This document shows, in pieces, positions 429 to 29,377 of a stretch of DNA of 44,228 nucleotides (its first letter is position 1; the number at the start of each line of letters is the position of its first letter). This DNA is from a virus: the IMG/VR virus record IMGVR_UViG_3300046001_004320, positions 1 through 44,228 of that record; one strand, written 5' to 3'. The notes under the pieces were generated by a model that was not told the DNA's origin, made no database searches, and saw only the letters and a list, made by a program, of their open reading frames with translations. The position numbers and the translations under genes were made by a program.

Positions 429-3400
429 ATGCCAATTTTCTACAACTCAGGTTATCCAACACCTACATCAAAAAATACTATTAACAGTGTAACTGTTGGT
501 GGTGGAATTAGAGACTTTTTATTAAACTTAAATTTATCACCACAATACCCACAAATAGCAACAAACATAAACGGTTCACCTAGAATTGGTGAACCAGTTT
601 TAGATACAACTGTTGGTACTGGAAATATCCTTATACCAATTGGTTTACCTTTGGAGACCAATGGTATTATATGGAAAGACTTAAATGTTATTTATAATAC
701 ATTTCAAAACGACCCAAACGTTTCCAATATATTAGAAGAAATTGATTATATTCCCGCATTATCAAATCCAGAGTTTGTTGGGGCTATTTGGCCAACAAAT
801 ACACAATATCCAACAGGTGCTAACACACAAGTTGAACAATATGGTATTAAAGGAAAATCAGAAATTGCTCAATACAGAATTGATAATGTAACTAGGAATT
901 TATATTTAGATTATGGAAGTCAAATAGATGTTGCTGATTTTATAACCTTGAACCCATTAAATATTTCTCAACAATTAGGAAACTATGTTGACGTGTTTGG
1001 TGGATTGAATCAAGGAGGTACTGCTGGAGACCAAGCGATAAACGTAATAGGAAGCGTTTTAAACGGTCAAGGCGTTGGTTTGGGTGCTGGAGGTTCAGTT
1101 ATACCAAATTTTGACTTTAAATCGTCTCTATTGGGTCGAGTGTTGGGTGGTGCTGGTTTTATCAAAGACACTAAGTTAGGTAATATAGGTGCACAACAAT
1201 TAGCGTTGGCGTTGGCAAACAATGCTGCATTCAATGTTCAACAAGATATATTAGGTGCTTTAAATTTAAAAGAAAATATTTATTCGCTTATTAAAGATGG
1301 GGAGTTAGCTGGTTTTAGACCTAGTTATAAAATTACAGTACCAAAATCAACGGGTGGTCAAATCCTTAATGGTATTACAAGAGTTTTAGGTTTTCAAATT
1401 CCAAGAAGTTATTTGGATGAATCTGGTTCAATTTTTCAATCTGAAAATGGGGATATTGGTAATATAGATAGAGCCAATGCTATGATTGAAAATACAGGTA
1501 AAGGTCAAGTAAAATCACTTATAAATAGCATGCTTTTAAACCTATCTGTAAATTCAGAAACTTTAAATTCGTTTAGAAGTGGTTACGCACCAGCTTTTGT
1601 TGATAAAGATGGTGAGCCAATGAGTAACCCTAAAATATATGCTTATTATTTTAGTAGTGGTGAAGGTACATCTAATGGTGATATAAATAAAATACTTGGT
1701 AATATAGGTGATGTAATACCAAGTATTAGTTACAATAGAGAGGCAGAAACGGAAAACGCTGACTTCTTTGACCCAACCTTAGCTTCTAGCGCTTTGTTTA
1801 AAGATTACAGCAATAGACAACCTAGTGACGTTACATTTTCTTGGGTTTCTGAACCATTTGGTGATTTGGTCAACGCAGTTGGTGATGGTAGTGATAGACA
1901 ATTATTAGGTGATAAAAAATCTTTATTGGTTAAAACTCAAAAATTATTTAACAATAAAGGTATGAAAACTATCGTTAGTGTTAAGGGAGATATGGATAAA
2001 ACTTCAACACAAACACAAACAGCTAATGGTTACGGTTTTTCTAAAGGTAGTGCTGTGATGTCTAAAAATATGTTTGATTTAGAATCTGGTGTTTGGAAAG
2101 GTGAAAAAAATAAAACAGCTGATGAAACATACTGTAGAAGTTGGACAACACTTGATAGATATGACTCTATTTCTAAACTAATAAGAAATAAACCACTATA
2201 TAATGATAAGCTTGCACCTTATAGATTTAGAACAAAAGGAAGTGTGTTGGATGGACCTTTTGTTAAAATAGGACCATATTCTGATGATTCACCAGACGAC
2301 CCAAAGAAATTTATGTTTAGTATTGAAAACCTTGCGTGGAAAGACAACCTTTTAGCTTTAGCACCTTGTGAAATAGGTCCAGGTGATTTAGTTTCAGGGG
2401 AAAAAGGTAGAATTATGTGGTTCCCACCATATGATATACAATTTAGTGAAAATAATTCTGTTAATTGGGAAGAAACCAATTTTATAGGTAGAGGAGAACC
2501 AATTTATACATACAATAATACAAAAAGAACAGGTCAATTATCTTTTAAAATAATTGTAGACCACCCAAGTTATTTTAATGCTTTTAATGCTAGAAAAAAC
2601 GCCAGTGGTTCACCAGACGATAATTATATTGCTTCATTTTTTGCTGGTTGTGTTGATATTGATAAAAGATGGTCTGATAAATTAACTAAAACACAATTAG
2701 AAGAGATTAAACCAAGAATAATAGAAAAGCCACAAATAAAACAAGAACCTAAAAACCCACCTACACCAGACACCATGAGCGTTTATTATCCAAATGACGT
2801 TAAAATATATAATCCTGAGTATGAAGATGCAAAATGTGGTGATGGTAGTAATATTGATTATGAACAAAACCCTAACGGTTTTCTTTGTGGATTATTTTTA
2901 ATTAAAGCTGACGTAACACAAAAAGATGTTAATGGTAAAACTGTTGAATGGCCAGATAGATTCGACTATGGGTTGAACTCTGGCAGAAATAGTACAGCAG
3001 ATTTTCCAACATTTGTTATTAACAAAGAAAACGCGGCATTTGGTTTTAACGACTCAGCATATGGTGATGACATGGTTACTTTTTTAAAAGAATACCCTTG
3101 GGCTGTTGTTAACTTTAAAGGTTTTGCAAGTCCTCAAGGTAACCCAAATTCAAATACAAAATTAGCTGAAGAAAGAGCTAAACTTTTAAGAGAAAAATTA
3201 ATCGAAGAATGGGGTGGACAATTAGGTGTTAGTAAAGATGTACTTGAAAAAAGGTTTAAATTGTTGGACGCTGTAGCCTTAAAAGAAAGCGACACACCAG
3301 GTTGTATTGTTGAATCAAGTGAAAACCCTAACCCTCCAGTTGATTTTGATGCGTGTAAAATAGCTAGAAGGGTTGAAATTAGTGTTACTTTTGATTCCAC

Positions 3401-4628
3401 ATTAAAAGCCGAAAAAGAAAAAAGTTTATTACCTTTTGATAAACCACCATTTAATACTGGAGAAAATGTTAGAATTCGTAAAGAAATTACCAATAAATTT
3501 TACTCTGAATGTGATTATTTTGAAAGAATGGTATCTGATTATGAAGATGAAAACGGTGATGTTATACCTGGTAATAAATTTGTGTTTGATTCTATTAGAG
3601 AAAAAATTAGATATTTTCACCCAGCTTTCCATTCAACAACACCTGAAGGTTTGAATTCAAGGCTTACTTTCTTGTTACAATGTACTAGACAAGGACCTAC
3701 CTTAGAAAAACAAGGTGCAAATAATTTAGCGTTTGGTAGACCACCTATATGTATTCTTAGAATCGGTGATTTTTATAACACCAAAATTGCTATAGATAGT
3801 GTTAATATTAGTTATGAGCCTTTGGTTTGGGACCTTAACCCAGAAGGTATTGGTGTCCAACCAATGATTGCTAACGTTGATATGTCGTTTAGTTTCCTAG
3901 GCGGTTCAAGTCTTATGGGGCCAATAAATAAATTACAAAATGCGTTATCTTTTAACTATTTTGCCAATACACATGTTTACGACCCTAGAGCTGATTATAT
4001 CTCTAAAGATATGTATGCGACCGTAACTGTAAAGGACGGTGTTGAAACTTCAGAATTTGGTTACCATATTGCTGATGGTAATTTAAATTATCTTGATAAT
4101 ATAGAAGAAAAAATCATTAGTGAAGAAATTTTAGCATCAGAGGCTTTATCTATTGACCAGATAAGTGAAGAAGAATTTGTAAACTTTGGTATTGACAATA
4201 TAACTGATGAACCACCAAGCACAGGTTCAACATATATTATAATAACAAATATGACATGTGACCAAGCTAATATAGTTAAAACTGATAGTAATTGGTTATT
4301 ACCTATTAAATTAACATATTTGCCAGAATTGGAAGGTGGTGCTGAAGAAGCTGTTGAAAAACTAGAAAGCGGTTATGGAAACTATAAAATTAAAGTTAAA
4401 GATGTCAACTCAAACGAAATGTACGAAAATTTTATGACAAAAGATAAATTTGTTAAATTTTTCACGTTAAACGATTTTTCAGATGATTCTAAATTTGTTG
4501 TACCAATAAAAGGTGAAGGGATTAGCGACGCTGAACAGGGTATAAAAGATAATTTACTTAAAGAAAATTTCTATGTATCGTTGATTAAAGACGGTAATGA
4601 ACTATATAAAATAAATATAAAACTATAA
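429..4628 (+). CDS. Large tail/baseplate protein with an OmpA-like peptidoglycan-binding domain
   Basis: This is a 1399-aa protein. Its N-terminal two thirds are unrecognised. Residues roughly 855-990 look like an OmpA C-terminal domain: GFASPQGNPNSN near 898, then the KLAEERAKLLREKL helix and CKIARRVEIS near 978, matching the family's GxASxxG, LSxxRAxxV and RRVEI motifs. Such domains bind diaminopimelate-type peptidoglycan. A following section (about 1050-1200) contains RPPICILRIGDFYNTKIAIDSVNISYEP in two short strands and then WDLNPEGIGVQPMIANVDMSFSF. This resembles the domain of contractile-tail initiator and baseplate proteins that caps the tail tube, where a G-x-I-x-S-x-x-x-x-Y strand precedes a 'DP.G.P..a.v..sf' motif. 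The next two genes are also baseplate-like and follow after 3 and -8 bases. I infer a virion protein near the tail tip that touches the cell wall. The OmpA call is fairly secure; the tube-initiator call is tentative. Confidence 0.75.
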   Translation: MPIFYNSGYPTPTSKNTINSVTVGGGIRDFLLNLNLSPQYPQIATNINGSPRIGEPVLDTTVGTGNILIPIGLPLETNGIIWKDLNVIYNTFQNDPNVSNILEEIDYIPALSNPEFVGAIWPTNTQYPTGANTQVEQYGIKGKSEIAQYRIDNVTRNLYLDYGSQIDVADFITLNPLNISQQLGNYVDVFGGLNQGGTAGDQAINVIGSVLNGQGVGLGAGGSVIPNFDFKSSLLGRVLGGAGFIKDTKLGNIGAQQLALALANNAAFNVQQDILGALNLKENIYSLIKDGELAGFRPSYKITVPKSTGGQILNGITRVLGFQIPRSYLDESGSIFQSENGDIGNIDRANAMIENTGKGQVKSLINSMLLNLSVNSETLNSFRSGYAPAFVDKDGEPMSNPKIYAYYFSSGEGTSNGDINKILGNIGDVIPSISYNREAETENADFFDPTLASSALFKDYSNRQPSDVTFSWVSEPFGDLVNAVGDGSDRQLLGDKKSLLVKTQKLFNNKGMKTIVSVKGDMDKTSTQTQTANGYGFSKGSAVMSKNMFDLESGVWKGEKNKTADETYCRSWTTLDRYDSISKLIRNKPLYNDKLAPYRFRTKGSVLDGPFVKIGPYSDDSPDDPKKFMFSIENLAWKDNLLALAPCEIGPGDLVSGEKGRIMWFPPYDIQFSENNSVNWEETNFIGRGEPIYTYNNTKRTGQLSFKIIVDHPSYFNAFNARKNASGSPDDNYIASFFAGCVDIDKRWSDKLTKTQLEEIKPRIIEKPQIKQEPKNPPTPDTMSVYYPNDVKIYNPEYEDAKCGDGSNIDYEQNPNGFLCGLFLIKADVTQKDVNGKTVEWPDRFDYGLNSGRNSTADFPTFVINKENAAFGFNDSAYGDDMVTFLKEYPWAVVNFKGFASPQGNPNSNTKLAEERAKLLREKLIEEWGGQLGVSKDVLEKRFKLLDAVALKESDTPGCIVESSENPNPPVDFDACKIARRVEISVTFDSTLKAEKEKSLLPFDKPPFNTGENVRIRKEITNKFYSECDYFERMVSDYEDENGDVIPGNKFVFDSIREKIRYFHPAFHSTTPEGLNSRLTFLLQCTRQGPTLEKQGANNLAFGRPPICILRIGDFYNTKIAIDSVNISYEPLVWDLNPEGIGVQPMIANVDMSFSFLGGSSLMGPINKLQNALSFNYFANTHVYDPRADYISKDMYATVTVKDGVETSEFGYHIADGNLNYLDNIEEKIISEEILASEALSIDQISEEEFVNFGIDNITDEPPSTGSTYIIITNMTCDQANIVKTDSNWLLPIKLTYLPELEGGAEEAVEKLESGYGNYKIKVKDVNSNEMYENFMTKDKFVKFFTLNDFSDDSKFVVPIKGEGISDAEQGIKDNLLKENFYVSLIKDGNELYKINIKL

Positions 4629-4631
4629 AAC

Positions 4632-4949
4632 ATGGCACAGTATTACGATAGGTATAAACCATTCAGAGTTGGTTCAGAAATAGAACCTGTAGCTGGTATA
4701 ATAATACCACAATCCAGTAATGATAAGTCAGTTGTTTATAAAAAAGGACAAAGTAGACTTGACATAATAAGTAATGATTATTATAATAACCCATACAGCG
4801 GATGGTTAATTATGCAAGCTAACCCACAATTTGGTGGGTTAGAGTTTAATATACCAGATGGAGCACTTATTAGGGTACCATATCCTTTTAGTGAAGCTGT
4901 TAGTCGTTATATAACACAAGTTACAAGATATAAACAATTGTATGGATAA
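4632..4949 (+). CDS. gp53-like small baseplate wedge protein (LysM-like fold)
   Basis: This 105-aa protein contains QSRLDIISNDYYNNPYSGWL, then IMQANPQFGGL and IPDGALIRVPYP. That order (a 'D.Ia...Y.dp..ww.I...N', then 'l..G..l.iP' pattern) is typical of LysM-like tail proteins such as T4 gp53 and phage tail protein X. In T4, gp53 is a baseplate wedge subunit and its LysM-like fold links the wedge to the hub. The gene lies between two large baseplate proteins, 3 bases after the first, and overlaps the second by 8 bases, which suggests coupled translation. The family assignment rests on pattern and context, not on a search. Confidence 0.6.
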   Translation: MAQYYDRYKPFRVGSEIEPVAGIIIPQSSNDKSVVYKKGQSRLDIISNDYYNNPYSGWLIMQANPQFGGLEFNIPDGALIRVPYPFSEAVSRYITQVTRYKQLYG

Positions 4950-7900
4950 TACAAATCAAAACAGAATTGGGTGTAGGTTAGGTGAAAAAATAGGAGGTAA
5001 TAATGGTTCTAGAACTAAAATTATAGACCCAAACGCCTTCTATGGTGAAACAGATTCATCTAGAAACATTCCAGTTAGATTAGAGGATTTAACGATATCA
5101 GTTAAGTTAACAACAAAAAAAAGAGGTAGAACATCTATAACAAATGATAGTGATAAAAATCAATCAACTGTAAAAGAACAACAAGGCGCTACAATAAATT
5201 TTATTGAAGGTTCTGATATAAACGGTAAAAAAGTTTTAACAACAAAATTTACTGAATTAACGACATCTTTTGAAACCGATACTTTTAACCCTGAGACTTT
5301 TGGTATTACTAATATAGATATAGATTTTAATTCATCTTACACTCCGATGATTAAAATAGATTTTATAGATGTTAGAGGTTCTTCTATTTTTCAAAATGAA
5401 GAAGAGTTATTAAATGACTCAGGAAATAAATACGCTACTTTTTTTGAGTTTCCATATCCGTTGTTTGAATTAGAAATCAAAGGGTATTATGGTTTACCAG
5501 TAACTTATTGTTTACATATGTTAAAATTTAACTCTAAATTTAATTCACAAACAGGTAATTTTGAAATAAGTTGTGAATTTATTGGTTATACTTACGCTAT
5601 GTTATCTGATATGCTTATAGGTGTATTAAAAGCTATACCTTTTACAAAAATTGGTGGTGATAAATTTAAAAAATATAATGAAAATAAAGACCCAAAAATT
5701 TTAAATTTGGTGGAATTAAAGAATAAGATTTCTTTAATTCCAGAATCAATTAAAAAAGCTGCGTTAAAATCAGAGGAAGCTAAAGATATAAATTCGTTTA
5801 AAGAAGCTCTAGAAATATTAAATAATTTAGAAGCGGCGATAAATAGCTTTGGTCTTGAATACACAACAACTAAAGACGAAACAACAACAACTATAACCAT
5901 ATATGATTTTGTTATTATGGAAAATCTTTCTTTTTCCGCAGAACGACAAGAAAAATATAATGATTTTGATAAAACGATAAAAGAATTAATAGTACAATAT
6001 AATAATTTAAATATAGGTGGTGCAAAAATAAATGAAATTGATTTAGCGACCCCAATAATTTTAAATGATTTAACTAAAAAATTATTGGAACCAGAAAGCA
6101 CGCTAACAATAGTTGAAGATTCTAAATTAAAAGACATAGCAGCTTTAGAAAGTTTTAAAAAAGACTTATTAAATTATTTAAATACTAATTTTACAGCAAT
6201 TGCCTCAGATTATGTGTTTAGGTTAATGGATTTAAGGTCTAGATTTAAACTAATAAAAGACCAAAGGGAGTTGATTGAAAAAACGTTAAACGACACAAAT
6301 AAATACTTAGCTAACGAAATTAAAAACTCAATTACAGAAACTTTAGGGTTTAACCCAACAGTTAGGAATATGATTGAAGTTTTCACATGTTTAATTGAAG
6401 TTTTTATGGAAACGGTTTATGAGGTTTCTAGAAAAGCTGAATTAAATCAAGTTAGAAAAGAATTGTTTACAACTGTTTTTAGTGGTAAAAAAGAAGGTAG
6501 TGATTATAACAAAGACGACCCTAATTTCTATCCATGGCCAGCTTATAGTGAAAAAGAAACTCAATCAAATAATTATAGTGACAAATACTTAGGCGCAAAC
6601 ACTATTTTAAAAAATAGAATAAGTGATATACCTGAATTAGAATTTATTGACGATTTATTACAAGCGTTTTTAACGGCAAGCAGGTTAGAACAAAGTTTAG
6701 ATTTGCTTAACGCTGGTAGTGGGACTTTATTTTTTCCAGTTAACCCTTTAGACACTAAATTATTTAACGATAAAGCTGGTAACCCATACGCTGTAAAAGA
6801 ACTACAAAATATCGAACAAGTAAAACGTTTAATGATAATTAGAGGTATGATATATCTATCATATACTAACAACCCACTATACATGTCAAGAGGTGAAAAT
6901 GGTGATATACGAAAAATGGCTATTTTAGAGGCAAACACTATGTTATCAGCGATAATTAACCCAACTTTAAAGGTTTCGTTAAAAAATTTAAAAATAGATG
7001 ATTTAGTTAAAACTTTTGGTACTATAAATGGTGTTGATTCAAAATTAATGTTTTATGATGCAACCGATAAAAAATATTACTATGATTATTTTTTTAGTAA
7101 CGGTGAAAAAACAGAAACTAAAGTTCTACCAATAAATTCAGATTTAAATGACTACGTACCAATAGCTTTAGGTAACCCTAGAATACCCAACACTCTTTCT
7201 AATATGGTAGATGATGGTATTTTATTTTTAACAAATTATAATTCGGGTGTTAATTACACTAAAACAGTAAACGAATTAACGAAACAAGAAGATTATGGTA
7301 TATATGTTAAAATGTTTACCAACGTTGAATATGCGACAGATTTAACTTTAGTAGACACATCTATCGACACAAATAGTGTGATAGATTTAATAAACTTATC
7401 AACAGGTAATATAGCTAACGCTGGGTTTAATTCTTTTGGTGGTATATTCGGTATTCAAGATTTTGGTAAAATAACTTTTGGGCCAGAAAATGCTCCAGAA
7501 AACACTCCAGCTATGTACATTTTTTATAGAAACGATAGTAAAAATAGAAATGGGTTGGCTGATTCTAGAGCACAATCAGCGTCAATAAACGGATTTAAAA
7601 ATAATAATAGTGTGTTCGATGGTGTTTGGAAACGAAACACCTTAATACCGACACCTAATGATTATTCAGAATTTATGAAAACTAAAAAAAATGGTAGGTT
7701 AATTCATGAAAGTGTTGGGTCTAGTAGGTTTAAAGCAATAGATATAAACACAGCACCAAACAATATATCATACCCTTATATTCAACAATTAACGAGTATC
7801 GTTCAAACTTTTAAAATTGGTGGTTTGGCCACTGGTTTTAGTTTATTTGGTAGTAAGTGGTACTATTTACAAAAAAATGCTGAATGTACTTATAATGATA

Positions 7901-10900
7901 ACCTAAGAAAACTTAATGTTGAAAAATATGCTAAAGCTCTTTTGTTTTTAAACACATTACCGTTTAATATATCTTATGATAATTATGACCCTTTTGGTAG
8001 TTTAGAAATAAAACATTTATTCGATATTAAAGGTGGGTTTGTTCACGCACCAAGATTTTGGGTTGCTTATGTGGGTGCCGTGTTATGGTGGTTATCTGAA
8101 GAAGACCCTATTATTGTCGATGGTAAAATTGTAGGTGGTGGTCGTGGAATCAAAGACCCAGTTATATGGAAAAAAACATGTGGGGTAAATGCTTCATCAT
8201 TTAAAGCACCAGCACCTGGTTATTATTTTCCTAGAATTATAGATGAAAACATTATAATTGAAAACGACTCTGTTATTAGAGCGTTACCAGAACAAGTTAA
8301 AAATGAGTTTCAAAAAGTTTTTTTTGATTTTGTAAACGGAACCAGTGTTTATGTTTCTTGGGAAACTATATATAATGGTTTAGAAATAACCAACCAAACA
8401 CCAACTGAGTTTTGTGGTTTTTTAGATAGAATGAGATATAAAACCACAGAAACTACACCAAATGGTCAAACTGGTTTTTTAGGGTATGATGGGACAAATA
8501 ATAACTATAATTTTTATAGCGATAAAATAATTGATAACTTAATAAATTACGACAATTATAACATAATAACAACCCTAGCAGAAGGTGCTAGTTTTAGTGA
8601 AGTAGATAAACATCAGTTTTTATTAGAATTAAACGGTGGTTCTGATGTTGGTAAAGCTCTAATTAAAGCGTTTGATGAAGAAATTATAATAGCAAACACT
8701 GGTTACGGTATATGGCTTGGTAAAGACAGAATTAATGTTAGAGGTGATGGTGATATTAATAGTGGTGAAGATTTAGATTTATTACGTAGACCTATCGGTA
8801 TTTCTGAAGGTTTTTTTAAAGAATATTACGAAACATATATATCTGTTATATCCAACGCGGTTAGTGGTTTAACATTAACCAATCAAGTGGAAAATGAAAT
8901 AAATCAAGTATTTGGCACAAACAATAAAGATGATGTAAAACTAATGCTTTATAGACATTGTAAAAATATCTATGATAAATGGCTTGGTGGTATAACAGAT
9001 GAAAGTAATATCATATTTCAATGTGGTGATAATAATAGAGATGGTAGCAATAGAAAAAAAATTGATGCTGCTATGGCTAAAAAATATAACCCCCTTTCAA
9101 GTTCCCCTAGACTTATAGATAGTTTTAGGTTTGTAACTAGGTCATTTAAAGATATTGGTAATGAATTATATATTGACCCAACACCCTTAGGTGAAACTAT
9201 ATCAGATTTTCCAAATACATCAGCAACTGGTGTGATAAGTGGGTTATTAAGTGATAATAAATTTGAATTTTTAGCGTTACCAACATTTATTAATTATCGT
9301 GATGACGAAATGTTACAATCAGTGTTTACACCATTTGCTTATGATGAAGCAATAACCACATGTGGACCAACATTTGTATGTGTTTATACTGGTCAAAAAT
9401 CTAATAAATTAGATTTAAAATCAGGTAAATACCCAAATGATGGTTTTGATATAAGATGTGACAAAGATGGTAATCCAGATGTGTCAATACCTTCAGATTA
9501 TGCCGAACCATTAAACGATAACGAAGACCCAGTTTCAGTGTTTGTTGTAAATTATTCACAACAAAACCAAAACATTTTTAAAGATATTACATTGGACCAA
9601 AGTGAATTCACCGAATCAGAAGAATCTTTAAAAATAGTTCAAGATATATCAACTAAAGGTTTTGAAAATAACCCTTCAATTGGTGGTCAAAATATGTATA
9701 ACATATATGCGGTTAGAAGTTATTCCGCGGAAATTGAAATGTTAGGTAACCCAATGATTCAACCTATGATGTATTTTCAATTAAACAACGTACCAATGTT
9801 TCATGGTGCTTATATGATTATTAAAACAAGGCATAATATAAAACCAAATTACATGTCAACATGGTTTACTGGTACTAGAATAAAATCGATTGAATCACCA
9901 ATAATAGATATTGCTGAAGCCTATATGAGTTTAATTGAAACCTTAGATTTAAGTACTGCTGGTAAATCTAAAGCGTCTAATGTTCGAGCAACTGAAGGTA
10001 AAAATTATGTTACTGATTTTTATTCTGATTTGAAGAGTTCAATTCCTAGTGATAAAACCATAATAGGTGTACCATTACAAAATCCAAAAGTTTTAACTCA
10101 AACAGCTGAAAATGAAATTACTGCTTGGAAAAACGGAACTTTAGACGAAAAAGATGCGGTTACTATATTGAAAAAATATGCTGATAAAACACCAGGAGTT
10201 GGTGCTCAAGAATATAGTTCTAATGCACAACCATGGAGTGCTGTGTTCATTTCGTATGTAATGTTAGCTGGTGACCCTAACTTTATGAAATCTACATTAC
10301 ATTATAGTTATGTATCATCTGCTATGAAAGGTGTTAATGGTTACGAAGCGTTCCCATTAAAATCTGGATTAAAAATAAAACCAGAAGTTGGTTGTCTTTT
10401 TTGTAAACCTAGAAGTGGTGCTTATACATCAAGTCACTGTGATGTTTTGTATAAAATAGATGGTAACACAGCGTTTTTGGTTGGTGGTAATTTAAGTGAT
10501 TCTATAAAAACATTTAAAATAGGTTTGTTTGATGGTTATATAACAGATTCTTCAGATGTTAAAGATTATATTTTAATAATTTTAAAAACAAATAATAAAT
10601 ACTACAATAAGAAAAATATTATTGGTGTTGCTGATTTTAACACTGGTGGTGAAAATGAAAAAACGGTGGTTGGTCCAACAGCAGATTATTGGTCTTTGGT
10701 TGCGATATGTGCGGCTGAAAACTTTAAAGAAAACCAACAAGGTATGGCAGATGTTGCGCAAAGTATTTACAATAGATTAAACACACCAGGAAAACCGTAT
10801 GGTAACTCTATTAAAGAAATCATTACCGCACCAAAACAATATGAACCTACGTTTAAAAATATTTCTGATTGGAAAAAAATTAATAGTAAGGCTACTTCGA

Positions 10901-11178
10901 TTGTTGCTTTAAGAAATAGTAAAAATATATCAGCTATAAATGCCGAAGAATACATAAATAACTCAGTTGAAGGTATAAATAATACTCAATATCGTCAAAA
11001 TTCTTTAGATTTTGTCGGTACTAGAACGGAGTTTTTAGCTAATGCACCAACTAGTTCACAAGCTAAAGGTGTTGTTCAAAGAACACCAGACAAAACAAAC
11101 AATGCGTTCTATTGGAGATATGCTGGTATTGCTTTAATTAATAGTCAACCAATAGCTGGACCTAATTTTTTAGTTTAA
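4942..11178 (+). CDS. Giant baseplate hub protein with two C-terminal cell-wall hydrolase domains
   Basis: This 2078-aa protein starts within the last 8 bases of the preceding gene. The N-terminal region (to about residue 240) is strand-rich and looks like a tail hub domain (FEFPYPLFELEIKGYYG). Around 1590-1655 the pattern IEMLGNPMIQPMMYFQLNNV, then FHGAYMII and a conserved H, resembles the hub/late-control (gp27, gpD-like) barrel. Residues about 1750-1885 resemble DUF2272-type peptidase-like domains: QPWSAVFISYVM with W1765, S1766, F1769 and S1771, then H1832 in SSHCD, then LVGGN. Residues about 1915-2078 resemble SleB/CwlJ cell-wall hydrolases: AICAAENF with candidate catalytic E1926, followed by GMADVAQSIYNRL and a PKQYEP segment. 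T4 keeps its hub (gp27) and lysozyme (gp5) separate; here they seem fused. The protein probably sits at the tip of the tail tube and opens the cell wall during infection. Domain calls are by motif; catalytic activity is inferred. Confidence 0.75.
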   Translation: MDNTNQNRIGCRLGEKIGGNNGSRTKIIDPNAFYGETDSSRNIPVRLEDLTISVKLTTKKRGRTSITNDSDKNQSTVKEQQGATINFIEGSDINGKKVLTTKFTELTTSFETDTFNPETFGITNIDIDFNSSYTPMIKIDFIDVRGSSIFQNEEELLNDSGNKYATFFEFPYPLFELEIKGYYGLPVTYCLHMLKFNSKFNSQTGNFEISCEFIGYTYAMLSDMLIGVLKAIPFTKIGGDKFKKYNENKDPKILNLVELKNKISLIPESIKKAALKSEEAKDINSFKEALEILNNLEAAINSFGLEYTTTKDETTTTITIYDFVIMENLSFSAERQEKYNDFDKTIKELIVQYNNLNIGGAKINEIDLATPIILNDLTKKLLEPESTLTIVEDSKLKDIAALESFKKDLLNYLNTNFTAIASDYVFRLMDLRSRFKLIKDQRELIEKTLNDTNKYLANEIKNSITETLGFNPTVRNMIEVFTCLIEVFMETVYEVSRKAELNQVRKELFTTVFSGKKEGSDYNKDDPNFYPWPAYSEKETQSNNYSDKYLGANTILKNRISDIPELEFIDDLLQAFLTASRLEQSLDLLNAGSGTLFFPVNPLDTKLFNDKAGNPYAVKELQNIEQVKRLMIIRGMIYLSYTNNPLYMSRGENGDIRKMAILEANTMLSAIINPTLKVSLKNLKIDDLVKTFGTINGVDSKLMFYDATDKKYYYDYFFSNGEKTETKVLPINSDLNDYVPIALGNPRIPNTLSNMVDDGILFLTNYNSGVNYTKTVNELTKQEDYGIYVKMFTNVEYATDLTLVDTSIDTNSVIDLINLSTGNIANAGFNSFGGIFGIQDFGKITFGPENAPENTPAMYIFYRNDSKNRNGLADSRAQSASINGFKNNNSVFDGVWKRNTLIPTPNDYSEFMKTKKNGRLIHESVGSSRFKAIDINTAPNNISYPYIQQLTSIVQTFKIGGLATGFSLFGSKWYYLQKNAECTYNDNLRKLNVEKYAKALLFLNTLPFNISYDNYDPFGSLEIKHLFDIKGGFVHAPRFWVAYVGAVLWWLSEEDPIIVDGKIVGGGRGIKDPVIWKKTCGVNASSFKAPAPGYYFPRIIDENIIIENDSVIRALPEQVKNEFQKVFFDFVNGTSVYVSWETIYNGLEITNQTPTEFCGFLDRMRYKTTETTPNGQTGFLGYDGTNNNYNFYSDKIIDNLINYDNYNIITTLAEGASFSEVDKHQFLLELNGGSDVGKALIKAFDEEIIIANTGYGIWLGKDRINVRGDGDINSGEDLDLLRRPIGISEGFFKEYYETYISVISNAVSGLTLTNQVENEINQVFGTNNKDDVKLMLYRHCKNIYDKWLGGITDESNIIFQCGDNNRDGSNRKKIDAAMAKKYNPLSSSPRLIDSFRFVTRSFKDIGNELYIDPTPLGETISDFPNTSATGVISGLLSDNKFEFLALPTFINYRDDEMLQSVFTPFAYDEAITTCGPTFVCVYTGQKSNKLDLKSGKYPNDGFDIRCDKDGNPDVSIPSDYAEPLNDNEDPVSVFVVNYSQQNQNIFKDITLDQSEFTESEESLKIVQDISTKGFENNPSIGGQNMYNIYAVRSYSAEIEMLGNPMIQPMMYFQLNNVPMFHGAYMIIKTRHNIKPNYMSTWFTGTRIKSIESPIIDIAEAYMSLIETLDLSTAGKSKASNVRATEGKNYVTDFYSDLKSSIPSDKTIIGVPLQNPKVLTQTAENEITAWKNGTLDEKDAVTILKKYADKTPGVGAQEYSSNAQPWSAVFISYVMLAGDPNFMKSTLHYSYVSSAMKGVNGYEAFPLKSGLKIKPEVGCLFCKPRSGAYTSSHCDVLYKIDGNTAFLVGGNLSDSIKTFKIGLFDGYITDSSDVKDYILIILKTNNKYYNKKNIIGVADFNTGGENEKTVVGPTADYWSLVAICAAENFKENQQGMADVAQSIYNRLNTPGKPYGNSIKEIITAPKQYEPTFKNISDWKKINSKATSIVALRNSKNISAINAEEYINNSVEGINNTQYRQNSLDFVGTRTEFLANAPTSSQAKGVVQRTPDKTNNAFYWRYAGIALINSQPIAGPNFLV

Positions 11179-11204
11179 AAATACTTTTATTAAAATTTAT
11201 TTAG

Positions 11205-11212
11205 TATATTTG
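11205..11212 (+). promoter_or_regulatory. Bacteroidota-type -7 element directly before the 198-aa gene
   Basis: TATATTTG lies in the context TTAGTATATTTG (11201-11212), the same 12 bases found at both gp32 promoters. No good -33 TTG is present at the expected distance. It ends only 4 bases before the ATG at 11217, so the transcript would begin at or next to the start codon. Confidence 0.5.
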
Positions 11213-11216
11213 CAAT

Positions 11217-11813
11217 ATGAAATTTGCCAATATAGTTTCGAAAACACAAATCAACGTTTCAGAAGATTTTAATGTGGTTGAATCCATGGACGAGATAATC
11301 CATGGGTTGCCTACATTAATTATTGGTTTTGATTTAACCGATAGTATTTTTCCAAACTATGATGTTGGTAAGATAAAAGTAACTGATAACGTTTATTGGA
11401 CAACAAAAAGAACTGAAAGTAGAGACAAACACAACATTGAAATTGAATGGTTTAAACACTTTGCATATCATGAATTGATAAAAAATATAAACTACATATT
11501 TGTTGACCCAATACAATACAAGAAAAAATCTTTTTTAAAAATACTCAAAAAAATATATTCGTCACCTAATAAAATCACTTATCAACACAAAGATATGATA
11601 TATATTTATAGTGATGATTTTATTTTTGGTATTGATTTAAAATTATTAAAATATCTACGTTTAAATACTTCAAAGATAAAAGATAAAATTATTAACATAA
11701 GCTCAGTGTTTTTGCGGGATACTGACATATTTATAGAATATAAAAGTATAATCGAAGACATGGAAAACCAAGTCAGATTTTTACCCTATTTGTATTCTAT
11801 AAAAAATGAATAA
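11217..11813 (+). CDS. Unknown 198-aa protein
   Basis: I do not recognise this protein. It has no signal peptide or membrane segment. The sequence is rich in lysine, isoleucine and aromatic residues, with a mixed helix/strand look and a central HELIKNINYIFVDPIQYKKK stretch. The ATG follows a -7 promoter element by 4 bases; a second in-frame ATG at 11286 (codon 24) would leave room for a leader, so the start is uncertain. The gene overlaps the next by 8 bases, which suggests a two-gene unit. It sits between the hub gene and the acidic-repeat gene, so it could be an assembly factor or a regulator, but nothing in the sequence decides this. Confidence 0.75.
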   Translation: MKFANIVSKTQINVSEDFNVVESMDEIIHGLPTLIIGFDLTDSIFPNYDVGKIKVTDNVYWTTKRTESRDKHNIEIEWFKHFAYHELIKNINYIFVDPIQYKKKSFLKILKKIYSSPNKITYQHKDMIYIYSDDFIFGIDLKLLKYLRLNTSKIKDKIINISSVFLRDTDIFIEYKSIIEDMENQVRFLPYLYSIKNE

Positions 11814-12201
11814 AACAATATTATTAGCCTCATTTATATTTCCAGAAAGAGTTGATTGGTTTTTAGATTATCTAAAAACAAAATTTAACGTGGAAAAAGT
11901 TTTTTGTTATAAAAACCTTGATGATGAATCAAAAAATATTCTTACTTTTAAATTAACAATAAACCCAGAAGAACCAATCAACCTAAAAAATTTATTTCCA
12001 AACGCTGTCATTATACATAAAAAAGGTGATGCTTTATATACAATAAATGCTTTGAATTTATTGATACAAGAAAAGTACCCAGAATCCATAGGAAATATAG
12101 ACAATAAACAAATAAAAATAAATTGGGTTGAATATCAAAATAAATTTATTTTGATTAATAATAAAGAACTTTGTATTTTTAATATAAAACGAGTTTTTTA
12201 A
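11806..12201 (+). CDS. Unknown 131-aa protein
   Basis: This soluble-looking protein is not recognised. It begins MNKTILLASFIFPERVDWFL, has alternating strands and helices, and includes GDALYTINALNLLIQEKYPE near the middle. The short hydrophobic start could suggest a signal sequence but lacks a clear cleavage site, and the pattern (strand then helix) fits a small alpha/beta domain equally well. The start overlaps the end of the 198-aa gene by 8 bases, so the two are probably translated together and may act together. It is followed by a 52-base gap with a TATTTATA motif, which suggests a new transcription unit after it. Confidence 0.7.
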   Translation: MNKTILLASFIFPERVDWFLDYLKTKFNVEKVFCYKNLDDESKNILTFKLTINPEEPINLKNLFPNAVIIHKKGDALYTINALNLLIQEKYPESIGNIDNKQIKINWVEYQNKFILINNKELCIFNIKRVF

Positions 12202-12212
12202 TTACTTTATGA

Positions 12213-12220
12213 TATTTATA
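12213..12220 (+). promoter_or_regulatory. Candidate late promoter motif TATTTATA
   Basis: TATTTATA occurs in the context GATATTTATAACTAAAC, 33 bases before the ATG at 12254. It occupies the only gap between the two-gene unknown unit and the next two genes, and resembles the motif before 41557 (GGATATTTATAATTAAAA). Confidence 0.4.
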
Positions 12221-12253
12221 ACTAAACATAAGATATTATAAATTATTTTCATT

Positions 12254-12442
12254 ATGGAAACCAACAAAGAACAAAACAAAAAAGCTGAAGATTTGAACAA
12301 AGCTTTAGAGGGATATTTAAACACTGAAAACCAAGACATGGATTGTACTTCAGGTGTTTGTGTTATCAAAGGTGATAAAAGCCTTATAGAAAGAATCAAC
12401 AAAAAAATTATAACAGAAGACGGTAGACAATTATTATTCTAA
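12254..12442 (+). CDS. Unknown small protein (62 aa)
   Basis: A small, charged, soluble protein that I do not recognise. It starts METNKEQNKKAEDLNKALEGYL, likely a helix, followed by DCTSGVCVIKGDKSL with a C-x5-C pair, then ERINKKIITEDGRQLLF. The start is preceded by an AT-rich leader with a candidate late-promoter motif. Its stop codon shares one base with the next ATG (TAATG), so translation of the two is probably coupled and they may form a pair, for example a virion or scaffold protein with a small partner. The role is not determined. Confidence 0.7.
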   Translation: METNKEQNKKAEDLNKALEGYLNTENQDMDCTSGVCVIKGDKSLIERINKKIITEDGRQLLF

Positions 12443-13284
12443 TGAGAAAAAAAATTACGTTTGACCCACAGTTAATCAAAGAGGAAGCTAAACGCTTTAA
12501 ACTATTGACCGAATATGATTTTTACCCTGAGGAAAATGTGATAGCACCTTCAGGTAACCCACAAAAACCTATTATATTAGGTAATGAATTAGGTAATGAA
12601 TTAGAAGAAGCCGAAGAAGAACCAGTAGTGGGCAACGAACAAGACCCAGAAGGTTTTGACCAAGCAGGTGAAATGGAGGATGATACACCAGTAGATATTG
12701 GAGCAGAAGAAATGCCAGCACCAGAAGGTGGTGAAGAAATGCCAGCGGAGGAACCTATTCCAGCACCAGAAGGTGGTGAAGAAATGCCAGCGGAGGAACC
12801 TATGCCAGCAGAAGAAATGCCAATAGAGGAACCTATGCCAGCTGAAGATGAAGTTGAGGTAGATGTAACTTCAATTGTTAAAGGGGCTGAAGAAGCTAAA
12901 GAAGCTGCTATTAGAGCCATGAAAGTGTCTAAAAGCACTGGAGAAGAATTAATGAGTAAATTAGCTAACTTAGAGGCTAAATTAGCTAAAATGGATTCAG
13001 TTGCTAGCAAAATTGAAGGGTTAGAAAAAGAGATTGTGAAAAGAAACCCAACACCAGTTGAAAAACTTGAAATGCGTTCTTTAAGTTCTTTTCCTTATAA
13101 TATAAAACTTAGTGATTATTGGTCTGACAAAGAAGGTGCTTATGATGTTATGGGTAATAAAGACAAAGAAAAAGAATACGTATTAACTAAAGACGATATT
13201 GATGACGATTATAGTTATTCACAAATACAAAATAGTTTTGATAAACCTTCGGAAGAACAAGGTTATGAAGAAGAAGATATTTAA
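12442..13284 (+). CDS. Unknown acidic protein with Pro/Glu repeats and a coiled coil (280 aa)
   Basis: Not recognised as a family. The N-terminal 25 residues are basic and helical. Residues about 50-140 are very acidic and low in complexity, with a 15-residue unit (PAPEGGEEMPAEEPM) present twice and a shortened copy after it, so this part is probably disordered. Residues about 145-200 (GAEEAKEAAIRAM ... SKLANLEAKLAKMDSVASKIEGLEKEI) look like a coiled coil. The C-terminus is acidic again. Strong acidity with a helical part would fit a scaffold or prohead-core type protein, or a virion decoration, but this is inference. It is the last gene before a strong terminator at 13304-13329. Confidence 0.8.
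   Translation: MRKKITFDPQLIKEEAKRFKLLTEYDFYPEENVIAPSGNPQKPIILGNELGNELEEAEEEPVVGNEQDPEGFDQAGEMEDDTPVDIGAEEMPAPEGGEEMPAEEPIPAPEGGEEMPAEEPMPAEEMPIEEPMPAEDEVEVDVTSIVKGAEEAKEAAIRAMKVSKSTGEELMSKLANLEAKLAKMDSVASKIEGLEKEIVKRNPTPVEKLEMRSLSSFPYNIKLSDYWSDKEGAYDVMGNKDKEKEYVLTKDDIDDDYSYSQIQNSFDKPSEEQGYEEEDI
12715..12804 (+). repeat. 45-base tandem repeat, two copies, inside the acidic protein gene
   Basis: Copies at 12715-12759 and 12760-12804 differ only in the last base. Each encodes 15 residues rich in Pro, Glu and Gly. A shorter related segment follows to 12837. The near identity suggests recent duplication or slippage. Confidence 0.85.
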
Positions 13285-24811: not shown

Positions 24812-27800
24812 ATGTCGAACAACAGTATAAGAATAAGAACAACACCAGATGGTAAAGATAAATATGTTAAAATAAAATTAGACCAAGAATTTGATTTTAT
24901 TGAAATTTTATCTTTAAAAATAACTCAAGCAGAAACCTATAGAAACTTTTGTGCTGATTATGGTGTTGTTGTTGGTAGAGTTTTCATAAACAATGGTTTT
25001 GGTATACCAAATGCCAGAGTTAGTATTTTTATACCTATAGACGACGTAGATAAAGGTGACCCAATTATAAATGGTTTATACCCTTATGAAGTTGTTACCG
25101 ACAAAGACATAGACGGTAAAAGATATAATCTACTACCAAAAAGTAGCGAAACCGACAATGAATGTTATACACCAGTTGGTACATTTCCAAATAAACGAGA
25201 AGTTTTAGATGACCCAGAAATGGGTCATGTTTATTGTAAGTATTACAAATTTACCACATCAACAAATTATGCTGGTGATTACATGATATTTGGCGTACCT
25301 ATTGGTAATTATACAGTACACGTTGATGTTGATATTTCAGATATAGGGATAGCATCACAAAGACCATATGACAGTATAAGTCAAGGTGCTCCGTTGCAAA
25401 TGTTCGATAGCCCAACAAAATTTAAAGACAATACAAATTTAGATAGATTAGCTCAAGTTAAAACAATCAACGCTGGTGTAAACGTACAACCATTTTGGGG
25501 TTCTGTTGAAAACTGTGAAATAGGTGTTAGTAGAATTGATTTAGATTTAAATTATGAAATAAAACCTTCAGCTATTTTTACGGGTGGTCTTTTTGGTGAT
25601 ACTGATAATAACAGTGTTAACAAAAATTGTAGACCTAGACGTAAAATGGGTAAAATTTGTGAACAAAACACGGGTGAAGGTACCATTGAAATGATTAGAA
25701 AAACCTTAAATGGTGATATTGAAAAATTAGATATAGAAGGTGGTAGATTGATAGATGATAATGGTGCGTGGGCCTACCAAATACCTATGAATTTAGATTA
25801 TTATTATACCAACGAATTTGGTGAATTAGTTTTATCTGAAGACCCAAACAAAGGGATACCAACTAGGGCTAATGTTAGATTTAAAATATCCATGGATAGT
25901 ACTGGTGGTGAAGGTAGGTTAAGAACAAGAGCAAATTATTTAGTACCACACAATCCAAATAACGTAGATGAAATTGACTATGAATTTGGTGAGTTAACAA
26001 AAAAAGATGTTAGTTTTAGAGATTTATATTGGAATAAAATATATTCAGTCTCTAATTTTATTTCAAGGTACCAAAGTAGCACATCAACATTTTCTAAGCC
26101 AGTTAACAATAGGAATTTTGTTGGGTTAAAAGATGTTGATGATTGTGTTGGTGGTAAAACACCAGCACCTTTTAATAGGGTTAACACAGTTTTTAATCCA
26201 TTATTTACTATAATTTGTTTAATAATGAAAATAATTGAATTTTTAATATGGATTATCAATACAATAGTGGTTCCTATATTAAATATTATTATGGCATTGG
26301 TAAATGCTGTAAAAAGAACTATTTGTGGTATATTAAGAAAACTTAGACGAATACTTGGAAAAATAGGTTTAGGTAGAGCTGTACCTAAATTTCCTTTTTG
26401 TAAGGACCCAAATTATTGGATTCCTTGTGTCGGTTCGTTTTGTCCAGAAAAAAGTGATGAAGATTCAAAACTATATGCACCAGGATGTAGTGGTAAGTTA
26501 AACGTAAGAGGTAGGGAAGAATTAGTATCAAATTCAGGTAGACCAATATTTACAACTAAATTAGGTGCGTTATCAGATTGTGTCGCATTTCAAATGGCTA
26601 AGTTGTTAAATTTATTCCAATTTGATTTTTATAATGATTGGTTAAATGGTTCTTTATATTACTATTTAGTAAAATACAAAAAAAGAAGACGTAGAGAAAA
26701 ATACTGTAATTATGATTGTTCAGGTGGTAATTGCAAATCTTCAATATTAATTGATACGTGTTATTCTGATGAAAAGGATAGCGAATCGATAGGTATTAAT
26801 GAGGGTTTAATTAAAAAATATAATAATGAATTATATTACGCACCTATCAAAAAAAATGGTCTTTCTAAATTATATGCGACTGAACTTATTAACCTAGGTT
26901 CAGTCTTCAAATGTGATTGGCAAGGAGTACCAAAAATACAAGAATTTTTGGTACCAACAACTTATATAATACCACCAACAACGGATATTTTATTAGATAA
27001 CTCAACAACTGTAGATACCAGTGGCCAAGTAGAAATAGGTAGTGTGTCAAAGGGTTTGTTTTTCAAAATCGATTGTATAGGTATAAAATCAACTAAAAAA
27101 CAAACTTTAAATATTAGACACGCATGTGAATTTGGTGTTGATTTAGACGAGATAGATTTTGAAGACGATGGTACTGAAATAAGTGCGAATCATATTATTG
27201 GTGTTCAAGAAATAAATTCACAATATGGTAAATACGCTAGAGATGTGTTTTTTGGTTTAAATAACGTAATAAATAATGTAAATATATCATTGCCATACAC
27301 AACTGATTTTAATCTATGTAATATTGGCGATTATAACTTTGCTAGCGACTCAATTTTAAATTCATCTGTCTGTACGTTAGGGCAAAATGGTACTGATTAT
27401 GTTAACTTTAGAGGTTACTTAAATAATAGTTCATTTTCACAACCTAAACATTCTTTTTATTTTTATTTTGGTACAATTCCTGGTGCAAGTGGTTTAGAAA
27501 AAATGAATAGTAAATTTTTTACAAAGTGTTCCCAAAAATTAACTGTTGAATTTTTTATACGTATAGATGATACAACAGCTATTAGTGAAGATGGGGTTCT
27601 AGATGGAATAGTAACCTTTACGATTATATCAGGTGTTGGGCCTTTTAGCTACGTAGTTAGCGGTCCAAATGGTTACAATACGTCTGCTACTGTAGAAGAA
27701 TCAAACACACCAATAACGTTGGATGGTTTAGGAGAAGGAACTTACACTATAAACGTAACAGATTCTTCTGGTGTTATAATATCTCAAACATTTGAAATTC

Positions 27801-29377
27801 CACCTCAAATAGCTTTATACGCTTCAGCTTCAGTTACAGGTTCTAATTCAGCATTAGCACCACCTTATAATGGTGAAATAACTTTGTTTAGTGTTGGTGG
27901 TGGTAATGGTACTTATAATGCAACTCTTTATAATTCTAGTGGTGTTATAGTAACTAACGTGACTTGTAATGGTAATGCGAATAGTGCTAACGGAAACCCA
28001 ACACAAATAACGCAAGTACCAGTCACTTTCTGTGGATTACTACCAGACAATGCACCAAATACTAACCCACAATTATCTGGTTTTACTGGGTATTACATTG
28101 TGGTTACAGATACAAGCTCACCACCTCAAACATTTCCTATTTATAATTTAAGTGTTGACGGTGTCACTGGTCTTAGTGCGATTGTCACAACATTACCACC
28201 AGTGTGTTATGATTCAAAAAACGGTAAAATAACAATCACACCAAGTGGTGGTGTTGAACCATATGAATTTGAAACAACGCTGTTAGAACCAGCTCAAAGT
28301 TTTTCTAGTCCAAACATAATAACAGCACCTATTGGTCAATATACTATTACTGTTACAGATAATAGTTCACCACCACAGACAACACCACCAATACCAGTAG
28401 AATTAAAGTCAGAATTTCCACAAATGAAATTAATCAGACCATCTCAAGAGGTTTTGGCGAATCAATGTGACCCAACTCAATATAAAATAAAACTTAAAAT
28501 TGAAAATGGTGGTGCTGATATTAACGGTTTGAATTATACTGGAAGATACCCACTCCCAAACGGGGGTTGGTATCAACTTAATTTTAATGAAACAGTTGAC
28601 GCAAATGATGAACTTATTTGGGGTTTGCCACAACAAGCGGTGTATGATTCTAATAAAGAGTTTGATGTTACAATTCCTAGCACTCAATCATTTACATCTG
28701 TTATTGTTAGATTATCTAATTCACAAGGTACGTGTGGAAGCGATGATAACGAAGATGATACAGAATTTAGTGTAACAGAAATAAGATTACCACCAAACGA
28801 ATTATTAATTGATGTGGATAATATCAATAATGGAAAACAATGTTTACCAAATAAAGTTTCCTTTAAATTTAATGTAAGTCATTTAAATTTATTAGCGACT
28901 TACAGGTCACCATATCGTTTGGAGTATCAAATAGCTAACAATAGTGGTGTGTATGGCAACACAATTAACCCAAACCCACCAATATTAATTACTGAAAACC
29001 AACAGTTGGTTACATTAAATGTACCTCTATTTTTTGGTAACGCATCAACAATAGCTAAGGTAAAAGTAAGGGTAACTGATAACGTAGGGTGTATATCTCC
29101 TTGGTTAACAATAGGTCCAATAGCGATACCAACACAAGTGTTAAATGTCAATTGGAGTAGCCAATTTGTTAGTGGTACTGTAGGGGCACCAAATGCAATA
29201 TATACCAAATCATATCAAATTGTGGGTGGTATTCCATCATACACAACACCAGCTGGTCAACCATTATTATCAACACCAACTTCAACGTCAGCTAGTGCCA
29301 ACGTTGCACTTAATAACGGTTTAACTATAACAGTTCAAGACAGTGTTGGTTGTTTAATCACAAAAAATTCAGGTTAA
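24812..29377 (+). CDS. Giant tail protein with SprB-like repeats and an internal hydrophobic segment
   Basis: This 1521-aa protein has an unusual mix of parts. Residues about 49-180 look like a carboxypeptidase-regulatory-like beta sandwich (VVVGRVFINNGFGIPNARV ... GDYMIFGVPIGNYTVHV). Residues about 460-500 are strongly hydrophobic (LFTIICLIMKIIEFLIWIIN and the next 20), followed by a basic helix (VKRTICGILRKLRRILGKI) and a Cys-rich section to about 660. Residues about 926-1000, 1000-1115 and 1120-1197 contain SprB-type modules (GGVEPYEFE, then IGQYTITVTD; LGEGTYTINVTD), and the C-terminus has a related one ending ITVQDSVGC. SprB repeats are known from a Bacteroidota surface adhesin used in gliding. 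Context indicates a baseplate-associated or fibre protein contacting the host. It begins 2 bases after the membrane protein gene and ends 9 bases before the next gene. Confidence 0.75.
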   Translation: MSNNSIRIRTTPDGKDKYVKIKLDQEFDFIEILSLKITQAETYRNFCADYGVVVGRVFINNGFGIPNARVSIFIPIDDVDKGDPIINGLYPYEVVTDKDIDGKRYNLLPKSSETDNECYTPVGTFPNKREVLDDPEMGHVYCKYYKFTTSTNYAGDYMIFGVPIGNYTVHVDVDISDIGIASQRPYDSISQGAPLQMFDSPTKFKDNTNLDRLAQVKTINAGVNVQPFWGSVENCEIGVSRIDLDLNYEIKPSAIFTGGLFGDTDNNSVNKNCRPRRKMGKICEQNTGEGTIEMIRKTLNGDIEKLDIEGGRLIDDNGAWAYQIPMNLDYYYTNEFGELVLSEDPNKGIPTRANVRFKISMDSTGGEGRLRTRANYLVPHNPNNVDEIDYEFGELTKKDVSFRDLYWNKIYSVSNFISRYQSSTSTFSKPVNNRNFVGLKDVDDCVGGKTPAPFNRVNTVFNPLFTIICLIMKIIEFLIWIINTIVVPILNIIMALVNAVKRTICGILRKLRRILGKIGLGRAVPKFPFCKDPNYWIPCVGSFCPEKSDEDSKLYAPGCSGKLNVRGREELVSNSGRPIFTTKLGALSDCVAFQMAKLLNLFQFDFYNDWLNGSLYYYLVKYKKRRRREKYCNYDCSGGNCKSSILIDTCYSDEKDSESIGINEGLIKKYNNELYYAPIKKNGLSKLYATELINLGSVFKCDWQGVPKIQEFLVPTTYIIPPTTDILLDNSTTVDTSGQVEIGSVSKGLFFKIDCIGIKSTKKQTLNIRHACEFGVDLDEIDFEDDGTEISANHIIGVQEINSQYGKYARDVFFGLNNVINNVNISLPYTTDFNLCNIGDYNFASDSILNSSVCTLGQNGTDYVNFRGYLNNSSFSQPKHSFYFYFGTIPGASGLEKMNSKFFTKCSQKLTVEFFIRIDDTTAISEDGVLDGIVTFTIISGVGPFSYVVSGPNGYNTSATVEESNTPITLDGLGEGTYTINVTDSSGVIISQTFEIPPQIALYASASVTGSNSALAPPYNGEITLFSVGGGNGTYNATLYNSSGVIVTNVTCNGNANSANGNPTQITQVPVTFCGLLPDNAPNTNPQLSGFTGYYIVVTDTSSPPQTFPIYNLSVDGVTGLSAIVTTLPPVCYDSKNGKITITPSGGVEPYEFETTLLEPAQSFSSPNIITAPIGQYTITVTDNSSPPQTTPPIPVELKSEFPQMKLIRPSQEVLANQCDPTQYKIKLKIENGGADINGLNYTGRYPLPNGGWYQLNFNETVDANDELIWGLPQQAVYDSNKEFDVTIPSTQSFTSVIVRLSNSQGTCGSDDNEDDTEFSVTEIRLPPNELLIDVDNINNGKQCLPNKVSFKFNVSHLNLLATYRSPYRLEYQIANNSGVYGNTINPNPPILITENQQLVTLNVPLFFGNASTIAKVKVRVTDNVGCISPWLTIGPIAIPTQVLNVNWSSQFVSGTVGAPNAIYTKSYQIVGGIPSYTTPAGQPLLSTPTSTSASANVALNNGLTITVQDSVGCLITKNSG

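Follow-up and report, generated by a model that had tools for sequence, protein, structure and literature searches.

A likely swappable pair of wall-enzyme domains at the C-terminus of a giant hub-like protein from an uncultured T4-like phage

Here we present an analysis of a giant hub-like protein encoded by IMG/VR virus record IMGVR_UViG_3300046001_004320, which was analysed over its full 44,228 nucleotides (nt), hereafter the window. This 44-kb record carries T4-like genes for a UvsX-like recombinase, a DnaB-like helicase, a ribonucleotide reductase and baseplate wedges. The protein, of 2078 aa, is read from an intact open reading frame (ORF) on the + strand (4942-11178), of which an identical copy is found on a second contig, L002. 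A DUF2272 domain and, after it, a SleB/Hydrolase_2 domain take up the last ~390 residues. In the reading that we consider likely, these two domains form a swappable wall-penetration cassette at the C-terminus of a giant baseplate hub, belonging to an uncultured T4-like phage with a probable host in the Bacteroidota. Among the relatives of this protein, the two positions, designated slot A and slot B, are filled by different enzyme families in a constant order, and are exchanged between near-identical genomes at three recurrent joints.

Searches returned 244 and 428 related IMG/VR loci, from which 98 distinct tails were collected, or 97 after removal of one that was cut by the contig end. The core of the hub-like protein, from residue 1 to about 1680-1685 (4942-9997, + strand), is common to these 244-428 loci, the remainder being variable; among the ~97 distinct relatives, conservation extends to about residue 1680 and gives way to divergence beyond it. 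In the 90 tails of sufficient length, Pfam recognised VanY (43), Phage_lysozyme2 (20), Hydrolase_2 (12), DUF2272 (11), GH24 (8), M23 (8) and M74 (3). Slot order, assigned with profiles built in this analysis, was peptidase-type followed by glycosidase-type in 38 of 38 recognised pairs, and the reverse order was never seen. Slot A is filled by VanY, DUF2272, M23 or M74, and slot B by tail lysozyme (Phage_lysozyme2), GH24, SleB and others. DUF2272 itself has several partners in the hub tails, namely SleB, tail lysozyme, GH24 and an unnamed family, with more in a wider scan.

The exchange of these domains is seen directly in closely related genomes. Flanks with DNA identity of at least 80% on both sides are shared by 22 locus pairs. 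The cassette differs in 12 of these, which corresponds to roughly eight independent events because some loci recur. The swaps affect slot A, slot B or both, and their borders fall at three joints on the + strand. At the first, where the core ends and the cassette starts (9955-9998), DNA identity stops between -17 and +12 nt from the core end in near-identical pairs with different cassettes. The second is the linker between the slots (10600-10690); a second class of break lies about 770-815 nt beyond the core end, between the two domains, and the linker joint is used in the pairs window/L028, L017/L061, L193/L202 and L195/L196. The third is the hub stop codon (11176-11200): after a full or slot B swap, identity is regained between -1 and +22 nt from the stop; after a slot A swap it is regained within the tail. 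L003 and L007, for example, are about 98% identical in core and flanks, yet the former has a lysozyme-like domain with an SGNH domain and the latter DUF2272 with tail lysozyme. Similarly, the window (in its L002 copy) has SleB where L028 has tail lysozyme, and identity between the two ends at L002:13685 (window 10626) and resumes at L002:14249 (window 11190).

Differences of this kind would be spurious if they were chimeras of metagenome assembly, an explanation to which we give very little weight. All of the contigs were assembled from metagenomes and one, L091, is visibly frameshifted, but several of the architectures recur on separate IMG/VR contigs, the joints lie at domain borders, the reading frames stay open across them and identity resumes at the stop codon. 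The cassette loss in L091 was itself rejected as only apparent, the frameshift lying in sequence 99% identical to L032.

The cassettes were also set against the phylogeny of the core. On the hub-core tree, slot A needs 30 changes versus 32-35 in ten shuffles, and slot B needs 28 versus 36-40. The ancestry of the hub thus says little about its cassette, hardly predicting slot A and only partly predicting slot B. Recombination at the borders of domains is a common event in phage tails and endolysins, and there is close to an even chance that the swaps are no more than ordinary phage mosaicism at such borders, devoid of adaptive or mechanistic meaning. Other variable patches in the flanks (e.g. 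L003:2810-3149) fit such mosaicism, and so does the search for spare cassettes in 26 long related records, in which the two families sought, VanY and Phage_lysozyme2, occurred in at most one copy each, nearly always within the hub ORF. Against this reading, the same three joints were hit in several independent pairs and slot A shows almost no correlation with the hub tree, so that exchange at this site seems to be unusually frequent. Shuffling within a genome was tried as a source of the cassettes and is unsupported for VanY and Phage_lysozyme2; because both were single-copy in the long records, the donors were probably other phages.

The domain in slot A of the window (10075-10600, + strand; Pfam core 10210-10521) was recognised by both profile and fold. 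With Pfam cut-offs of 27 bits for both DUF2272 (PF10030) and Hydrolase_2 (PF07486), DUF2272 matched residues 1757-1860 with an E-value of 8.4e-9 and 36 bits in the whole protein, and with 41 bits when the 393-aa tail was scanned alone; NCBIfam gave a sub-threshold match to TIGR02594 (E 8.2e-6). The AF2 model of residues 1420-2078 has high confidence over most of both domains, with a predicted local distance difference test score (pLDDT) of about 90 across most of slot A. In VIA-align, residues 1712-1886 of this model resembled CHAP/NlpC wall enzymes: PlyGRCS (Z 9.3), the LysK CHAP domain (8.3), the diffocin hub-hydrolase (8.2) and the hub CHAP domain of phage 812 (5.9). Over the ranges aligned, the predicted fold is papain-like of the NlpC/CHAP kind (8xyf at Z 9.3, and several others at Z 8-9). 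Sequence searches of the PDB with both enzyme domains gave no credible match. The original prediction, made from the letters of the window, had put two different wall-hydrolase domains at the C-terminus of the 2078-aa hub-like protein, at 10190-11178; the pair is indeed there and both domains match their families in profile searches and structure prediction, but by fold it starts earlier, at about 10075.

The residues named in that prediction are also in place. The PWSAVF motif begins at residue 1764, so that S1766 (10237-10239, + strand) occupies the nucleophile position; 11 of 12 hub relatives have Ser here, and L056 has Cys (alignments A5 and A7). H1832 (10435-10437, + strand; within SSHCDV), the predicted catalytic His, and N1850 (10489-10491, + strand), the predicted third residue of the triad, are invariant in all 12 DUF2272 hubs. 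In place of the catalytic Cys of CHAP and NlpC/P60 peptidases the window has Ser1766, with His1832 kept, and Ser for Cys is a trait of PF10030 according to a survey of papain-like families, which argued from pocket charge, with no experiment, that activity may persist (PMC10318531). Ser was also dominant in a wider scan of distinct related ORFs, a result biased by one search pattern that demanded Ser, and two related phage ORFs picked up by the DUF2272 profile read PWCG where the window reads PWSA.

Because the nucleophile position holds Ser, not Cys, we can only infer that DUF2272 cuts peptides. There is an appreciable, though lesser, probability that it is a catalytically dead CHAP-like domain serving as a peptidoglycan binder or spacer, with SleB alone doing the cutting. 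This would account for the Ser seen across the Pfam family and in all but one of the 12 hub relatives, and it has a precedent in DUF1175, a related papain-like family described as inactive and peptidoglycan-binding (PMC10318531). A dead domain, however, would not need the His and Asn that are invariant in relatives down to 35% identity to the window, and would sit oddly with the Cys of L056 and with a slot that otherwise holds zinc peptidases of active type; moreover, a negatively charged pocket may permit catalysis by Ser (PMC10318531). On the division of labour proposed in the original prediction, one domain for peptides and the other for glycan strands, the CHAP/NlpC-like fold, whose relatives cut amides, and the SleB-type transglycosylase agree with it, while peptide cutting as such is not supported in view of S1766. 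The slots add to that division, in that sister phages fill the DUF2272 slot with the zinc peptidases VanY, M23 or M74, and the SleB slot with lysozymes. That the pair can be exchanged as a cassette was not visible to the original prediction.

Slot B of the window (10669-11120, + strand) holds a SleB/Hydrolase_2 domain of the lytic transglycosylase type. In the whole protein PF07486 matched residues 1930-2009 with an E-value of 8.9e-6 and 26.7 bits, 0.3 bit below the cut-off; with the 393-aa tail scanned alone the score was 31.3 bits, over it. The fold agrees: in VIA-align, residues 1910-2060 matched the SleB structures 4fet and 4f55 (Z 8.0 and 7.7, respectively) over 114 of about 125 residues, and Foldseek matched 4f55 with a probability of 0.98 but, for this multi-domain model, with no E-value below 0.001. 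E1926 (10717-10719, + strand; within AAENF) is the sole invariant Glu in the 12 SleB domains of the hub family and marks where the first helix of the model ends; by its position it is the presumed equivalent of the catalytic Glu of SleB, a lytic transglycosylase in which that Glu is essential (PMC12331253). For the same reason the name hydrolase, which the domain had been given earlier, holds as a family name only.

The SleB domain of the window (10717-10770) has a two-residue insert (AENFKENQQGM) that most hub SleB domains lack and that is shared with L339, L346, L347 and L348, where SleB lies in long phage proteins with no detected hub core. The shared insert suggests that the window SleB was imported from another family of tail genes. 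Other tails show further variety. Three slot B families in the tails of L057, L015 and L034, given our own labels WNPLN, KSAGGYNY and NPGNLR, had no Pfam match and, judged by their position, may be new families of wall glycosidases. In the hubs of L003 (13161-14243), L016, L040, L074, L178, L180 and L184, an SGNH/GDSL-type domain, possibly a peptidoglycan O-acetyl esterase, stands behind the lysozyme-like or VanY domain. Finally, in L048 the hub ORF (7983-12713) ends after the core and an overlapping 370-aa ORF, starting at 12682, carries DUF2272 and tail lysozyme, with L271 as a like case; the cassette may therefore also exist as a free-standing gene.

The designation of the protein as a hub draws on converging evidence, each piece of it weak: matches from both ends of the core, in the same chain as the enzymes, together with synteny, and no single strong match. 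Residues 50-216 are similar to the barrels of tail tubes and hubs, lactococcal p2 and Neisseria tail proteins among them (Z 6.5-7.3), and the end of the conserved core gave Foldseek matches to Mu gp44 (probability 0.87), the monocin tip (probability 0.94) and the 80alpha baseplate, in a part of the C-terminal AF2 model that has low confidence. No single hub stood out with confidence among the matches of the AF2 model of residues 1-1200; flagellins were its top VIA rows, on a helical region, and were set aside as a common helical arrangement. Immediately upstream is a baseplate wedge-like subunit (4632-4949, + strand; phrog_7145, E 2.2e-4), preceded by a 1399-aa protein (ORF 429-4628) with a weak OmpA-like peptidoglycan-binding motif at 3030-3650 (PF00691, E 0.24, under the cut-off) that could provide a wall anchor beside the hub. 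Among the PHROG matches of the tails, some carry the label endolysin, as would be expected if the protein were not for entry and its domains served lysis from within or acted against competing phages. This we hold to be improbable, given that a large hub-like core, encoded beside baseplate genes, bears the domains in the same chain and that the same arrangement has been proposed as a hub-hydrolase in diffocin (PMC11329794).

In a tblastn search of 50,697 phage records the sole match to the hub was to its SleB part, at 28.9%, in a 954-aa protein without assigned function from a Synechococcus phage. By a baseplate gene, the closest isolated phages are Flavobacterium phage immuto and a Microcystis phage, and immuto gave no match to either hub profile. 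As to the host, a Shine-Dalgarno motif precedes 0 of the 26 window genes, and bacterial genomes yielded a single hub relative, located in a Bacteroidales metagenome-assembled genome on a contig of 287 kb, where gene order matches. The window also encodes a 1521-aa adhesin-like protein (24812-29377) in which an SprB repeat (28.1 bits against a cut-off of 28) is accompanied by a stretch like CarboxypepD_reg, both being typical of Bacteroidota surface proteins. The missing Shine-Dalgarno motifs, the SprB repeat and the Bacteroidales relative support, without proving, a Bacteroidota host, which is thus probable.

T4 likewise has a contractile baseplate with a wall-cutting enzyme at the tail tip, but there the hub, gp27, and the lysozyme, gp5, are separate proteins and the single enzyme cuts glycan. 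For gp5, and for virion lysins at large, a review records that two-domain lysins are frequent against Gram-positive hosts, whereas those of phages with Gram-negative hosts typically have one catalytic domain, endopeptidase types being almost confined to Gram-positive systems (PMC6116005); such lysins are described as absent from contractile systems targeting Gram-negative bacteria (PMC11329794). That two wall tools can lie in one chain, as the original prediction supposed and as the presence of two different domain families here would allow, is a design already known from diffocin CD1368 of Clostridioides difficile (8v3w_H), in which a gp27-like hub precedes a lytic transglycosylase and then an endopeptidase of the papain-fold NlpC/P60 type, the chain being proposed to work as scissors on contraction (PMC11329794). 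The endopeptidase of diffocin has the fold matched by slot A (Z 8.2). However, diffocin CD1368 has a Gram-positive target, 581 aa, the transglycosylase before the peptidase and a Cys-His-His triad, whereas the protein of the window has 2078 aa, the reverse order, a Ser triad, SleB where diffocin has its own transglycosylase, and a host that is probably Gram-negative. CHAP-fold wall enzymes on virion proteins are also found in the hub of staphylococcal phage 812 (9eum) and in HydH5, which joins CHAP with a glycosidase-type LYZ2 domain and for which no hub part is described (PMC3150257); these differ in their Gram-positive hosts and Cys nucleophile. The slot A domain shares with PF10030 a score over the Pfam cut-off, Ser in the place of Cys and a conserved His, and differs in being part of a phage hub; described DUF2272 members are mostly proteobacterial (PMC10318531). 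The slot B domain shares with SleB its profile, fold and invariant Glu, but Bacillus SleB has an N-terminal binding domain and a role in spore germination, and here the catalytic domain is a tail-hub module. Targeted searches of open-licence papers found no description of a swappable hub cassette. What looks new is that the host is probably Gram-negative, that the order is reversed, that slot A is of the Ser type, that SleB is used and, above all, that exchange takes place at fixed joints.

In the mechanism that we propose, the hub core is followed by two slots in fixed order, the first predicted to be peptide- or amide-cutting and the second glycan-cutting, filled here by DUF2272 with its CHAP/NlpC-like fold and predicted Ser1766-His1832-Asn1850 triad, and by a SleB-type lytic transglycosylase with Glu1926 as predicted catalytic residue. 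Contraction of the tail would drive the hub, and with it the two enzymes, into the periplasm, where the pair would breach the peptidoglycan locally. Phages would trade the cassette by recombination at the core end, the inter-domain linker and the stop codon, so that one type of hub bears many enzyme pairs. The domains, their conserved residues, the order of the slots, the swaps and the joints are direct observations; catalysis by each domain, a role during entry, the place of the hub in the virion and the host are deduced from them and from the matches described above. Several points weigh against this scheme. Outside this hub family SleB also precedes M23 or VanY, so that the order of peptidase before glycosidase is a habit of the family and no general rule; 7 of the 97 relatives have neither domain and some have one, so that the pair is not obligatory. 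The nucleophile of slot A is Ser, and PF10030 members of this kind are without proven activity. Furthermore, all of the matches to hubs are weak (E above 0.006, Z under 8), and every sequence is an assembled metagenomic contig. A bolder version, which we regard as doubtful, would make the hub a standard socket with three fixed joints for exchangeable peptidase and glycosidase blocks in phages of Gram-negative Bacteroidota, the enzyme pair a swappable second determinant of host range tuned to the chemistry of the host wall, and DUF2272 a wall peptidase of papain fold with a Ser nucleophile.

If the scheme is true, a large phage family without Shine-Dalgarno motifs and with a link to the Bacteroidales, whose hubs bear both a peptidase and a glycosidase, would overturn the generalisation that virion lysins of Gram-negative systems have a single catalytic domain. 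The natural series of swaps would provide a ready set of enzyme pairs on one hub for asking why two types of bond need to be cut and what limits the exchange of modules. The DUF2272 slot would likewise give a direct test of whether a papain-fold domain with a catalytic Ser cuts peptidoglycan, a question already raised for this family (PMC10318531).

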